Shown here: positions 6,735 through 11,780 of the stretch, piece after piece | How positions within the stretch are numbered: position 1 is the first letter of the stretch | How the letters are laid out: each line of letters begins with the position of its first letter | DNA from: Clostridiaceae bacterium BRH_c20a | GTDB taxonomy: Bacteria > Bacillota > Peptococcia > Peptococcales > BICA1-8 | DNA: 64,000 nt | Reading direction: 5' to 3' | Assembly (NCBI GenBank): GCA_000961765.1 | Contig: LADT01000002.1 | Span: 62,001 to 126,000, forward strand | Position numbers and translations under genes: made by a program | The notes under the pieces: model-generated | Seen by the model: the letters and a program-made list of their open reading frames with translations, nothing else | Database searches by the model: none | Told to the model about the DNA's origin: nothing

Positions 6735-8858
6735 CATTTCATTATTTTTTTCTTGTTCTTTTAAGAGTTCTTTTCGAGATAAATTTACTCTACCCTGACG
6801 GTCAACTTCAATTACTTTGACCATAATTTCATCGCCAACTTGTACAACACTTTCTACTTTTTCTACCCTTTCTAATGCCAACTGAGAAATATGCACCAAG
6901 CCTTCTTTCCCTGGTAACACTTCTACAAAAGCGCCAAAGTTTGTAATCCTTGCAACTTTTCCTAGATAAATTTGTCCTACTTCTAATTCTTTAGTTAAGT
7001 TTTCAATCAATTTTATTGCTTTCTGAGCTGAGGACACATCGACAGAGGCAATAAATACTTTACCATCATCTTCAATATCTATTTTAACTCCGGTTTCCTC
7101 AATTATCTTCTTAATGGTCTTACCCCCAGGACCAATAATATCTCTTATTTTTTCAGGGTCAATCATTATAGTAATAATTCTCGGTGCATATGGGGATAAA
7201 TCAGCACGGGGCTCTGTAATTACTTCCAGCATTTTATCCATAATAAACAGCCGTCCCTTGCGGGCCTGTTCTAAAGCCTCTTTTAATATATCTCGGGAAA
7301 TTCCAGCAATTTTGATATCCATTTGAATTGCTGTGATACCGGTTTTAGTTCCTGCAACTTTAAAGTCCATATCACCTAAGGCATCTTCCATTCCTTGAAT
7401 ATCAGTTAATATTGAAAAATCATCACCATGTTTAACTAGACCCATGGCTATACCTGAAACAGGTTTTTTAATGGGTACACCGGCATCCATTAAGGCCAAA
7501 GTACTTCCACAGACACTGCCCATTGAGGTAGATCCATTTGATTCTAAAGCTTCGGAAACTATCCGAATTGCGTAAGGAAAATCCTCCTCTGAGGGAATCA
7601 TAGGTTCTAATGCTCTTTCGGCTAATGCACCATGCCCTATTTCTCTTCGACCCGGTCCTCTCATAGGTCTTGCTTCTCCTACACTAAAGGGGGGAAAATT
7701 ATAATAATGCATATATCTTTTCGATTCTTCCAGCCCTAAGCCATCAATAATCTGTTCTTCACCTATAGCCCCTAGAGTTAATACCGATAATATTTGAGTT
7801 TGTCCCCTAGTAAATAAACCGCTGCCATGGGTTCGGGGAAGTATACCGGTTTCACAAGAAATTGGCCTAACTTCATCTAAAGCTCTACCATCAGGACGAA
7901 TTTTATCAACAGTAATCAATTTGCGAACAATCTCTTTTAACAAGCTATCCAGCACAGTTTTTATCATTTTTAATGCATCGGGAAATTTTTCTGTAAAATA
8001 GTTAAAGGTTTCTTCCTTAACCTTACTGATATTTTCTTCTCTCTCATGCTTATCCTTTGTTTGAACCGCACTATAAAGCTTGTCCATAGCATAAGCCCTA
8101 ACTTCTGTTTCAATTTCAATGGGTATTTCCCCTAAAATGGGTTCTTCCTTAGCTTTTGCTAAACCTTTTTCTAAAGCTTCCCGACGGAACTCCTCAATAA
8201 ATTCTATAATTTTTTTTATTTCACTGTGTCCCTGCATAATAGCTTCTAAAACTATTTCCTCAGATACTTCCTCAGCTCCTGCCTCAACCATCATCACAGC
8301 ATCTTTGGTTCCGGCAACAACTAAGTGCAGCTTGCTTTTCTCGGCTTGCTCGATATTAGGATTAATTATTAGTTCATCATTAACTAATCCCATAGTTACT
8401 GCACAAATAGGACCTTGAAATGGTATTTGGGATATATGTAAGGCCGCAGAAGCACTAACCATTGCTACCATATCAGGTGGATTGTTTTGGTCAACTGAAA
8501 GCACAGTTGACACAATATGTACGTCATTACGATAGCCCTTAGGAAAAAGAGGTCTAATTGGCCTGTCAATAAGACGGCAGGACAAAACAGCTTTTTCACT
8601 GGGCCTACCTTCTCTTTTCATAAATCCACCCGGAATTTTACCTACTGCATATAACCTTTCCTCATAATCAACAGTTAAAGGGAAAAAATCTATTCCTTCC
8701 CGTGGTTCTTTAGAGGCGGTTGCAGTAGCTAAAACTGCAGTATCGCCATATTGGGCAAATACAGCACCACCAGCCTGTTTTGCCAGACGACCTGTTTCTA
8801 AGGTTAAGGTGCGTCCGCCTACATTTATTGCTTTTCTTAAAATATTTTTGTTCTCCAT
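6729..8858 (-). CDS. pnp: Polyribonucleotide nucleotidyltransferase (PNPase)
   Basis: A 709-residue phosphorolytic 3'-5' exoribonuclease of the RNA degradation machinery. Two RNase PH-like domains (about 1-145 and 310-550) flank an alpha-helical linker. A KH domain with [12 protein letters not shown] (about 560) and an S1 domain with the NFGAFVEV signature near 640 follow. Length is normal. The start ATG has AGGAGG about six bases upstream. It follows rpsO, as in most bacteria, with a hairpin and its own promoter candidate between them. Confidence 0.98.
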
Positions 8859-8928
8859 AAATACCTCCTACTTAAAAAGTGAGTAATTGTTAAGCAATCA
8901 TATTGTTACCTGGAAAAACTTTATTTTT

Positions 8929-8957
8929 ATTATATCCTATCTTTACTAATATAAATA
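8929..8957 (-). promoter_or_regulatory. Promoter candidate of pnp
   Basis: Consensus -10 TATAAT (8929-8934) on the minus strand, with a weak -35 (TATTTA) 17 bases upstream. It lies just downstream of the rpsO hairpin and about 70 bases before pnp. Confidence 0.5.
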
Positions 8958-8960
8958 CTT

Positions 8961-8984
8961 AAAGAGCGGTATAAACCGCTCTTT
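8961..8984 (-). terminator. Hairpin between rpsO and pnp, terminator-like
   Basis: Perfect ten-base arms AAAGAGCGGT/ACCGCTCTTT with a four-base loop, 9 bases after the rpsO stop codon. The following T-tract is short and interrupted, so it may be a leaky terminator or an RNA processing site rather than a full stop. Confidence 0.7.
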
Positions 8985-8992
8985 TGTGTCGA

Positions 8993-9262
8993 CTATCTAC
9001 GTATGCCAAGAATGGATATAATTTTACGATATCTTTCGATATCATTTTTTATTAGATAATTCAAAAGACCCCTTCTTTGTCCAACCATTTTCAGCAAACC
9101 CCTACGGGAATGATGGTCTTTTTTATGTTCTTTTAAATGTTCAGTCAAATAGTTTATTCTATTAGTTAGAATTGCTATTTGTACTTCCGGTGATCCTGTA
9201 TCACTTTCATGAACTTGGAACTGTTTAATAAGTTCTTGTTTTTGGTCACTTTTTAGAACCAT
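8993..9262 (-). CDS. rpsO: 30S ribosomal protein S15
   Basis: An 89-residue protein that binds the central domain of 16S rRNA. The conserved sequence [13 protein letters not shown] (18-30), [19 protein letters not shown] (about 39-57) and the C-terminal YLIKND..RY segment are complete. The start has AGGAGGTGA a few bases upstream. A structured leader of about 80 bases precedes it, which may carry an S15 autoregulatory site. Confidence 0.98.
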
Positions 9263-9265
9263 CTA

Positions 9266-9352
9266 TGTCACCTCCTTAAATTTATTGAACCCCATAAGCC
9301 AAGAATAACGTCGGAGAATCATTAATCTGAGCTTAAGGTTTATCAGCATTAA
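9266..9352 (-). promoter_or_regulatory. Structured rpsO leader, possible S15 autoregulatory site
   Basis: The leader contains a stem made by ATTAATGCTGA and TCAGATTAAT (one bulged G). In its loop, AACCTTAAGC can alternatively pair with GGCTTATGGGGTT close to the ribosome-binding site. Bacterial rpsO leaders often bind S15, in several unrelated folds. Here the function is inferred from position and pairing potential only. Confidence 0.4.
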
Positions 9353-9354
9353 TA

Positions 9355-9383
9355 AGTATATATAAAATAAATTATTTATGCAA
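9355..9383 (-). promoter_or_regulatory. Sigma-A promoter of rpsO
   Basis: TTGCAT (9378-9383), 17 bases, TATACT (9355-9360) on the minus strand. It lies immediately after the stop codon of the small upstream gene. Confidence 0.7.
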
Positions 9384-9384
9384 G

Positions 9385-9606
9385 TTATTTTCCTATAACA
9401 GTAATAACTAAGCGCCCTGTTTCAATATCTTTAGCTACAATATCAAACATTCTTCCGGATTTGCTTATAAATCCACGAAGTCGGGTAGCTGTTGGAACAT
9501 ACCCGGGAATTTGTTTAGCTGCTAAGACAATATCAGATATTTCGATTTTATCCTGTCTGTAATCTTTTAAGCGTTTTTTAGCGTGTTCAGTTATTATTAC
9601 CCGCAC
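9385..9606 (-). CDS. Small basic protein, possible RelE/DUF4258-like toxin
   Basis: About 73 residues from a GTG start. The sequence begins VRVIITEHAKKRLKD and continues with a short helix (ISDIVLAAKQIPG). It ends with a beta-rich half (RLRGFISKSGRMFDIVAKD, then LVITVIGK). The HAKKRLK start and the strand-rich end recall DUF4258 and RelE/ParE-like small toxins, but I cannot name the family. A longer reading to 9708 would run through the preceding gene, so I reject it. The gene starts 14 bases after the stop of the 72-codon gene, as in a two-gene unit. Confidence 0.6.
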   Translation of the reverse strand: MRVIITEHAKKRLKDYRQDKIEISDIVLAAKQIPGYVPTATRLRGFISKSGRMFDIVAKDIETGRLVITVIGK

Positions 9607-9619
9607 AGTCTTGCACCCA

Positions 9620-9838
9620 TTAATAAGCTTTAACAGGTAATAAACGTTCTTCTTGAACCAAAAAACTATATAATGCATCTTGAAAAGCATGTTTTTTGGG
9701 TTTTTCAAAACCCAATTTTAAATATAATATTTCTAACTCTGACTGCAGGCTATTAAACTCTTTGTTATGAACTATATTCGTAATCTTCTCAGCTAAATCT
9801 CTATAAAAGCTATGGTCTTCATCAATGTAATACGACAT
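9620..9838 (-). CDS. Small acidic protein, possible antitoxin partner
   Basis: A 72-residue protein of mainly helical appearance (FYRDLAEKITNIV, SLQSELEILYLKLG, FQDALYSFLVQEE) with no recognisable DNA-binding motif. The start is well supported by AAGGGGGAG seven bases upstream. It is the first gene of a two-gene unit between ribF and rpsO. An inverted repeat lies directly before the gene, overlapping a promoter candidate, as in self-regulated toxin-antitoxin operons. The function is a guess from layout. Confidence 0.6.
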   Translation of the reverse strand: MSYYIDEDHSFYRDLAEKITNIVHNKEFNSLQSELEILYLKLGFEKPKKHAFQDALYSFLVQEERLLPVKAY

Positions 9839-9849
9839 AAAAACTCCCC

Positions 9850-9898
9850 CTTATTAGTTATATTAAATATATATCTAATAAGAAGGTGATAATGTCTA
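9850..9898 (-). promoter_or_regulatory. Promoter and operator-like inverted repeat of the small gene pair
   Basis: Eight-base arms CTTATTAG (9875-9882 on the minus strand) and CTAATAAG (9850-9857), with an AT-rich 17-base spacer that is itself partly palindromic. A candidate -35 TAGACA (9893-9898) and -10 GATATA, 17 bases apart, overlap the upstream arm. Confidence 0.4.
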
Positions 9899-9957
9899 TT
9901 AAATAAAAGTATTTGCGTAAATTCGTCTGTTGGTTTATTCGTCTATTGGTGTAAAAT

Positions 9958-10899
9958 TTAAGGTGTTGATGGATTGGTATCTCGGAAATACTTTATAGTT
10001 GTTTGAACATCATTAGAAATTTGTTTTTTTAACTCTATTATACTTGCAAATTTCGTTTCATCTCTTAATTTTTTATAAAAAATTATTTTTATTTCACAAC
10101 CATAAATCTCCCTTTGGAAATCCAGGATATTTACTTCCATGGTAATTGTAATATTTTGTGTTACCGTCGGTTTTTTTCCAATATTTAGTACTCCCATGTA
10201 GAGAACATTATCAAATTCTACTCTAACAGCATATACACCGGTAGCAGGAATTAGCAAATTATTATCCCACTCTAGATTAGCGGTAGGAAAACCCATTTGA
10301 CGACCAATTTTATTTCCCTCAATAACCTTACCAATAATTGCAGGCTGATATCCTAAAAGTCTGGCAGCTTCGGCGATTTTACCTATTTTTATATAATCTC
10401 TGATTTTTGTACTACTTACTAATTTACCTTCTACATAAAAGGGTTCTATAATAGTTACTTTAATATTTTGTTCTGCTGACTGTTTAATTAGGTCTTCAGC
10501 TTTACCTTTTCCTTTATGACCAAAAGTGTAATTAAATCCGGCTACAGCATGGGATATTTTAAGTTTATTACTGAGAATTTCATGAACAAAACAAGGGGGA
10601 GACAGTTCTGCAATAGTTTTAGTAAATGGAATTACTAAAACATTTTCCACTCCCAAAGATTTTAGCAAATCAATCTTCAATTTCAGGGAATTTATTACTT
10701 CAATATGGTTGTTAAATAATAACTGAGGATGGGGGAAAAAGGTAAAAACTAATGTCTCCCCATTAATGCCCCTTGCAATATCCTTAGCCGCGTTAATTAA
10801 ATGCTTATGTCCCAGGTGAACACCATCAAAATTACCTAAAGCTGCTACTACAGGTTTTTCAGGACTAATATATTGTTCTAAGCTTCTGAATACCTTCAT
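9958..10899 (-). CDS. ribF: Bifunctional riboflavin kinase / FAD synthetase
   Basis: A 313-residue enzyme making FMN and then FAD. The N-terminal nucleotidyltransferase domain shows FDGVHLGH (about 24-31) and NYTFGHKGKGKAED. The C-terminal flavokinase domain shows GRQMGFPTANL (about 200) and the GVYAVRV strand. The ATG at 10899 is preferred; a GTG twelve bases upstream is part of the GGTGAGG ribosome-binding site. The extended site overlaps the end of truB. No FMN riboswitch is visible. Confidence 0.95.
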   Translation of the reverse strand: MKVFRSLEQYISPEKPVVAALGNFDGVHLGHKHLINAAKDIARGINGETLVFTFFPHPQLLFNNHIEVINSLKLKIDLLKSLGVENVLVIPFTKTIAELSPPCFVHEILSNKLKISHAVAGFNYTFGHKGKGKAEDLIKQSAEQNIKVTIIEPFYVEGKLVSSTKIRDYIKIGKIAEAARLLGYQPAIIGKVIEGNKIGRQMGFPTANLEWDNNLLIPATGVYAVRVEFDNVLYMGVLNIGKKPTVTQNITITMEVNILDFQREIYGCEIKIIFYKKLRDETKFASIIELKKQISNDVQTTIKYFRDTNPSTP

Positions 10900-10907
10900 T
10901 ATGTTCC

Positions 10908-11780
10908 TCACCTAAATACCTTTACAGGCTTAAAATAATTATCTTTTAAAATTCCAACAGCCAACAATTCTTTATTTTTATCCAATACTTTGTACTTAAT
11001 TCCTTCCAAAACTGAACTAGAAGAAGTCCCGAAAATAACTTTATTGCCGTGGCTTATTTTAACAATATCATCTTCACTAAAATCCAATTCCTGCAAATCC
11101 GGAAGGCTATCAGCCATTTTTATCAGAAACTTATTAGCTTCCAGCTGCTTTATTTCATCCAAAGTATAAGAGCTATCAATATGAAAAACTCCTGATTGTA
11201 CTCGTAGTAAAAATGACATATAAGCGCTGGAGTTTAAAGCCTTTCCAATTTCCTCACAAAGGGTTCTAATATAGGTTCCTTTACTGCATGTGACATCAAT
11301 AAGAGCGCTGTGTTGATTGTAATTAATCAATTTAAGGTCATATATCTCTATAATACGAGACTGCCGGGCAATTTCCTTACCTTCCCTGGCTAATTTATAT
11401 AAAGGCTGTCCATTAATTTTAACAGCGGAGAACATTGGTGGTACCTGTTCTAGTTCACCTATAAAGCTTTCTAGAACCTTTAGTAATTCATCTTCTAAAA
11501 CTATAGGAAGGTCTGTCTTTTTAGTGACCTGACCTGATCCATCCTGGGTATCGGTTTCATAACCAAAGCAAATTAGGGCCCGATAACGTTTAGCAGCAGA
11601 AGATAAATACTCTGCCAAACGAGTAGCCTTTCCAATACATAAAGGAAGAACACCTACAGCATCAGGATCTAATGTTCCGGTATGACCAACTTTTTTTGTT
11701 TTTAAAATTTTTCTGACTTGATTTACAATATCATGGGACGTAACACCTGGCTGTTTAAGTACATTTATTATCCCATCCAA
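10908..11780 (-). CDS. truB: tRNA pseudouridine(55) synthase
   Basis: A 290-residue enzyme that isomerises U55 in the T-loop of tRNAs. The N-terminus NVLKQPGVTSHDIV and the catalytic-Asp motif GHTGTLDPDAVGVLP (about 36-50) are typical. CSKGTYIRTL and a C-terminal PUA-like region follow. It begins with TTG, with AAGGAGGG about ten bases upstream, and overlaps the end of nrnA by 26 bases. Confidence 0.96.
   Translation of the reverse strand: MDGIINVLKQPGVTSHDIVNQVRKILKTKKVGHTGTLDPDAVGVLPLCIGKATRLAEYLSSAAKRYRALICFGYETDTQDGSGQVTKKTDLPIVLEDELLKVLESFIGELEQVPPMFSAVKINGQPLYKLAREGKEIARQSRIIEIYDLKLINYNQHSALIDVTCSKGTYIRTLCEEIGKALNSSAYMSFLLRVQSGVFHIDSSYTLDEIKQLEANKFLIKMADSLPDLQELDFSEDDIVKISHGNKVIFGTSSSSVLEGIKYKVLDKNKELLAVGILKDNYFKPVKVFR

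Follow-up and report, generated by a model that had tools for sequence, protein, structure and literature searches.

Proteins with the RelE fold are familiar chiefly as toxins, and some BECR toxins use catalytic residues other than those of RelE itself. For E. coli RelE, an excerpted account names Arg61, Arg81 and Tyr87 as residues that matter for cleavage, which the R81A/Y87F change nearly abolishes (PMC2807027). Modules containing a DUF4258 protein are entered, in the excerpted listing of one survey, with the antitoxin (A) ahead of the toxin (T) and with the target given as unknown (PMC11980606). For the C-terminal domain of the tRNA methyltransferase TrmO, binding to tRNA has been hypothesised (PMC4132733, in extract).

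The window considered here, the whole stretch of 64,000 nucleotides taken from contig LADT01000002.1 of Clostridiaceae bacterium BRH_c20a, carries two small genes, called A and B, beside rpsO. A literature search that left subscription journals mostly outside its coverage returned no paper on such a pair at this place. An earlier note described the genes as a toxin–antitoxin (TA)-like pair, a reasonable idea given the antitoxin-first order in the excerpted DUF4258 listing (PMC11980606). The predicted fold of B and the gene order bear out the likeness, but separate occurrence, a fixed place and the lack of a plasmid match speak against an addiction module, and the distribution of the pair fits a resident factor better than a TA module. 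The reading preferred here, which is given about an even chance of being right, is that the pair forms a resident, mainly vertically inherited unit in which B would be an RNA-binding RelE-fold factor, A its partner and the leader hairpin ahead of A a regulator.

Two genes between ribF and rpsO

In the window, ribF, A, B and rpsO follow one another in this order, all co-directional on the minus strand (Table 1). The two open reading frames that had been placed between ribF and rpsO are confirmed; the spacer between them measures 13 bases, not the 14 first counted. Both are genuine genes, judging by homologues across genera and by low dN/dS, and purifying selection acts on both: 20 pairs of related loci give B a median dN/dS of 0.05, and 18 of these pairs give A one of 0.12, dS being not computable for the other two. 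A search of the organism's own genome finds the A–B stretch as a single copy, and a profile search with B gives no second B there even at E 10.

Table 1. Features of the ribF–rpsO interval, in positions of the window
Feature	Positions	Strand	Description
ribF (riboflavin kinase/FAD synthetase)	9958-10911	minus	conserved 5' neighbour of A
leader hairpin before A	9846-9886	minus	12-bp stem; Shine-Dalgarno region of A within the 3' arm
gene A	9620-9838	minus	72 aa, ATG start; acidic, predicted three-helix bundle; no convincing family match
spacer, A stop to B start	9607-9619	minus	13 bases
gene B	9385-9606	minus	73 aa, GTG start; very basic; predicted RelE/BECR-like fold
rpsO (ribosomal protein S15)	8993-9262	minus	conserved 3' neighbour of B

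Two further stretches of the minus strand were seen near these genes. A terminator-like hairpin with a T-rich tail (8961-8984) lies right after rpsO and ahead of pnp. In the gap between B and rpsO, positions 9289-9318 hold a stretch of approximately CTCCGRCGTTATTCTTGGCTTATGGGG that is almost identical in loci L060 and L061 and partly so in L063; it resembles an S15 leader, with no Rfam family at threshold there. An Rfam scan of 8800-10100 at E up to 1 gave three matches, with none of the three close to its gathering score.

The A–B pair is old, chromosomally fixed and common to many Bacillota families, and is no local oddity. In a phylum sample of 398 genomes from 267 genera, B occurs in 97 genomes (67 genera) and A in 78 (57 genera). 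A recount gives 105 genomes with either gene, comprising 70 with both, 27 with B only and 8 with A only; one of the A-only genomes (G061) has just a weak, probably spurious match inside a frame of 734 codons, and the B-only set includes one match with stops (G113) and two very short matches (G307, G392). Each carrier in this sample has one match per gene, the exceptions being two weak second matches to A. Five A matches cross a stop codon; in the two of these that were inspected (G088, G065), an intact open reading frame ends before the match does. Of 100 relatives, 28 carry A and 32 carry B; both genes are absent from all 16 genomes of other families (f2-f4) of the window's order. The earlier statement that most genomes have nothing between ribF and rpsO is right for many relatives, which are empty there, but it passes over the carriers of one or both genes counted above. 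Among 20 chosen pair-less genomes, 17 have a ribF–rpsO gap of 128-373 bases with A and B absent, one has the two genes 2.7 kb apart, and two are without a ribF match in the stretch.

Synteny was counted on named contigs, where a scan found 156 relatives of B and the best 80 were kept. Named carriers of B include members of the Desulfotomaculum group, Pelotomaculum, Thermincola, Heliobacterium and many MAGs. Within these best 80 of 156, A comes before B in 79 loci, the remaining one (L131) having B without A. Downstream of B, rpsO is found in 78 of the 80, and ribF lies directly upstream in 75, with three loci cut by a contig end and two (L114, L117) in which ribF is not adjacent. Spacers between A and B are short or overlapping across loci. 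In two loci (L066, L084) rpsO is no longer downstream while the pair still sits behind ribF, so the link to rpsO is not absolute.

Three of the MAGs carry titles that are probably wrong: Armatimonadetes (L117), Deltaproteobacteria (L118) and Actinobacteria (L121). Their loci are typical of the Desulfotomaculum group. The titles are doubted because L118 and L121 fall within the Desulfotomaculum-group clade on the marker tree described below, and because the L117 B gene has 85% DNA identity to that of L114 (Desulfovirgula).

Searches of mobile DNA gave no match to A or B in 72,556 plasmid records and no match to A in 50,697 phage records; a scan of viral contigs confirmed no relative of B. The single B homologue among the phage records belongs to Moorella phage MTATph1. 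A recent or mobile TA insertion was considered as an origin of the pair and is ruled out by the synteny together with the plasmid, phage and viral-contig searches. The phage, of 177 kb, carries its B homologue (L181 2995-3222) at 42.5% identity, with no A-like gene directly upstream: the upstream product was weighed as a partner and rejected, having long hydrophobic stretches and no similarity to A. The target of B may matter to this phage.

Predicted folds of proteins A and B

The two products differ sharply in composition. The pI of B is 10.2 in the window, with a family median of 11.3 (80 sequences), and that of A is 5.5, with a family median of 4.6 and a range of 4.1-7.9 (79 sequences); the median charge is +8.5 for B and -6.3 for A. 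The model of B (pLDDT 95.1) runs strand-helix-helix-three strands. A Foldseek search with this model places HigB2, YoeB and ParE-type chains first, all at E of 0.06 or higher. In VIA-align, the top rows for B are tied between the TrmO C-terminal domain (7bu1; Z 6.9, rmsd 2.7, 66 residues) and RelE. RelE 2kc8 aligns at Z 6.4 (rmsd 3.3, 67 residues) and BrnT 3u97 at Z 5.0 (rmsd 2.8, 64 residues); RelE, ParE, HigB and BrnT together span Z 5.0-6.4, and Z stays below 8 for all B rows, values that alone could reflect a common arrangement. Most of the 50 VIA-align rows for B belong by title to the RelE/BECR superfamily, and the predicted RelE/BECR-like fold of B is drawn from these many rows, not from one strong match. 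A PDB sequence search with B gave nothing at E up to 10. Absence of a family from the structural neighbours listed for A or B is no evidence of a new fold.

The earlier note had compared B with RelE and DUF4258 folds, and both parts of the comparison are supported, the predicted RelE/BECR-like fold being joined by a weak DUF4258 profile match. The Pfam model (PF14076) scores 17.7 bits against the window's B, below its cut-off of 25, in an alignment that spans residues 5-71 of B and positions 1-70 of the model. Of 43 members of the B family, 31 match it at E <= 0.1, the best value being 0.0015. The organism's own genome has no DUF4258 match at E <= 0.001. Elsewhere in one B-only genome (G057, C1) lie three ordinary DUF4258 genes that score above the Pfam cut-off, so B and typical DUF4258 proteins exist there side by side as separate families.

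The structural alignment pairs B residues 1-73 with RelE residues 3-81 and ends at B73–RelE81, so that B has no counterpart of RelE Tyr87. Residues that are invariant in 43 B sequences include H8, R12, R17, Q18, R42, R44, R52, D55, K59, D60, R65, T69, G72 and K73; K59 and K73 vary in a more divergent set of 28. B may still act in a RelE-like way, through binding to the ribosome or to RNA.

Protein A is modelled as three helices (pLDDT 85). The window's A has no Pfam or NCBIfam match, its PADLOC hit to HamA reaches only E 0.014, and 55 members of its family give only scattered weak Pfam rows. Its best PDB fold match has a Z of 4.9, and a PDB sequence search gives four chance-level rows, the best at E 0.062. 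In these weak-scoring searches A appears as a conserved family without a convincing match, and with no recognisable antitoxin or DNA-binding fold.

These predictions bring in one alternative, a genuine type II TA module, with A as antitoxin and B as a RelE-type RNase, that was fixed early on the chromosome and whose orphan B copies lost toxicity. The BECR-like fold predicted for B is what such a module would have, and so are the pairing of an acidic with a basic product and the short or overlapping spacers. The gene order agrees too, acidic A first and basic RelE-fold B second being the A/T order entered for DUF4258 modules in the excerpted listing (PMC11980606). On the other side, nothing in B can stand for Tyr87, as far as the excerpted account of RelE cleavage names the residues that matter (PMC2807027), and plasmids carry no match to either gene. 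This alternative is judged rather unlikely, and the pattern of loss and the evolutionary rates given below bear on it further.

The leader of gene A

The leader hairpin pairs positions 9886-9875 with 9857-9846 on the minus strand and has a stability of -16.6 kcal/mol, where shuffled sequences average -6.5 (z -4.75) and none of 200 is as stable. Its 3' arm contains the ribosome-binding region GGGGG(AG) of A. The inverted repeat pointed out earlier is thus real, but the promoter candidate that it was said to overlap was not recovered: on the minus strand, a consensus scan of 8900-10000 listed nothing sigma-70-like ahead of A. Three relatives reach z -2.75, -5.48 and -2.90; in L060, L061 and L063 a hairpin occupies this position although its arms have changed, and the leader hairpin is solid in the window's family. 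A promoter-like pattern, TTTACA...TATGCTACAAT, was noticed by eye, uncounted, ahead of the hairpin in many Desulfotomaculum-group loci.

Beyond the window's family the evidence for a leader hairpin is suggestive. A z below -2 is reached by 18 of 66 non-redundant A leaders; for the other genes the counts are 3 of 65 (B), 3 of 63 (rpsO), none of 57 (pnp) and 1 of 36 (ribF). Pairing of the Shine-Dalgarno (SD) sequence across 64 leaders is no higher than in shuffles (0.62 versus 0.60). For alignment, 36 of the 66 leaders were taken; 13 of the window's class, the window's own included, were aligned apart from these, and 17 were set aside as misaligned or having doubtful starts. RNAalifold gave no consensus structure for the 36, and covariation of a helix set by hand is mixed. 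In its favour, 78% of the cells of this helix are paired, versus 41-50% when it is slid, and among 500 shuffles its covariation score is reached by 8 and its percentage paired by 32. Against it, the number of two-sided pair changes is reached by 156 of the 500, and in three of the six slid versions two-sided cells are more numerous than in the hand-set helix. A universal leader that sequesters the SD sequence was considered and is unsupported by the SD pairing probability and by RNAalifold, with covariation mixed.

The leaders also bear on a second alternative, in which B would be a sequence- or structure-specific mRNA-binding regulator of its own leader or of the S15 and PNPase transcripts, with no nuclease role. 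The frequency of stable hairpins before A, against few before the other four genes, is in line with this, as are the position of B next to rpsO and pnp and the occurrence of a hairpin with z below -2 upstream of B in 3 of 11 B-only loci (L171, L172, L175). The other 8 of the 11 B-only leaders, taken over a 52-base stretch, are not below z -2, however. The hairpin arms differ strongly between families, with no shared motif seen, and the mixed covariation counts against such a regulator as well; it is held to be quite improbable. For the preferred reading, a resident unit, the hairpin would have a role in the window's own family, where it probably represses translation of A, and that of B by coupling.

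Inheritance, loss and likeness to known systems

The two genes do occur separately in part of the relatives, an outcome that the earlier note had named as counting against its reading. B persists without an A match in 27 of 97 B genomes, though in three of the 27 the match is decayed or very short; A is found without B in 8 of 78, and both are present in 70 of the 105 carriers. Twenty loci without one partner or with decay were opened (7 A-only, 11 intact B-only and 2 decayed), and each of the 20 has its remaining gene in the interval from ribF to rpsO. The two decayed loci belong to family f39, where B has decayed in place in L176 (5163-5360) and in L177 (3342-3610), with A also decayed in L177; from this decay it follows that the pair is not essential. 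Another member of f39, L051, has both genes intact. A candidate RibF–A fusion in a 441-codon open frame (G400) was rejected, the frame not being that of RibF.

On a marker tree built from RibF, RpsO, Pnp and TruB (82 rows, quick method, midpoint root), rows with both genes lie on both deep sides of the midpoint root. The minimum number of changes on this tree is 3 for A-only, 5 for B-only, 18 for both and 12 for neither, and the corresponding shuffled means are 6.8, 11.5, 27.6 and 18.1. Presence of A and B therefore follows the marker tree, yet with many changes, and the pair sits in a fixed locus though its presence, with the 12 changes to or from neither gene, is patchy. Since the position never varies, the many changes are best read as losses; some may be gains at this one place.

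An addiction module is disfavoured by the retention of B without A over lineages, which a needed antitoxin should preclude unless toxicity had been lost. The pair is not filed as a TA module because this persistence of B was tested for and found, and the orphan B copies may be toxins that lost activity. Repeated loss and decay agree with the type II alternative, as does the faster divergence of A; the occurrence of each gene without the other in separate lineages, the fixed locus and the slow evolution of B weigh against it.

The rates come from 30 loci that were found through B, a choice that favours B, with mean amino-acid distances of 0.25 for B, 0.28 for RpsO, 0.31 for Pnp and 0.62 for A. 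In this set B is about as conserved as S15, and A diverges faster than B. Distances of A and B correlate at a Mantel r of 0.50, with none of 2000 permutations as high; the correlation of B with Pnp is modest (r 0.30, 2 of 2000 permutations as high), and that of A with Pnp is 0.28. A third alternative, that A and B are unrelated small genes in one old locus that act independently, would explain why each occurs without the other in separate lineages. It sits poorly with the presence of both in two-thirds of the genomes that have either, and with an A–B correlation higher than that of either gene with Pnp, and it is considered very unlikely.

The inheritance of the pair is in line with the preferred reading, a resident unit, being more like that of a housekeeping unit than of a selfish TA module. 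In the truB-ribF-A-B-rpsO-pnp locus of Bacillota, A and B would form a unit of old standing, passed on mainly by vertical descent. B would most likely bind RNA on or near the ribosome as a regulator, an assembly factor or a turnover factor; it is possibly a slow or conditional RNase and would not be a plasmid-addiction toxin. A, where present, most likely binds and modulates B. Synteny, spread over the phylum, the marker tree, low dN/dS, the slow evolution of B, its fold model, the opposite charges of the two products and the hairpin in the window's family speak for this reading; the low scores behind the fold, the many changes on the tree, the decayed copies, the loci without rpsO, the modest B–Pnp correlation and the weak hairpin evidence outside the window's class speak against it. 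A more specific proposal, put forward tentatively and with considerable doubt, is that B is a housekeeping RelE-fold factor, bound to the ribosome or rRNA, that joins S15 and PNPase in the quality control of ribosomes or the turnover of mRNA and is tuned by A and the leader hairpin. A slow-evolving B in a Bacillota locus for translation and RNA decay would then be a rare case of a RelE fold serving the cell, and what a non-addictive RelE does could be tested directly. With gene A comes a conserved protein family as well, for which the searched libraries gave no convincing match.

Compared with DUF4258 modules, the pair shares a weak match of near full length, a predicted BECR-like core and the antitoxin-first order; it differs in that the score lies under the cut-off and B forms a separate syntenic family. 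The mRNA interferases RelE, HigB and BrnT are fold neighbours of B, but identity in those rows is about 11-15% and B is not always beside a partner gene. The C-terminal domain of TrmO, which is no toxin, is a top structural neighbour; it differs in being fused to a methyltransferase barrel, with a Z under 8 and no sequence relation shown to B. If B is a housekeeping factor of the kind proposed, the RelE proteins of TA systems and B would be two branches of one RNA-binding fold.
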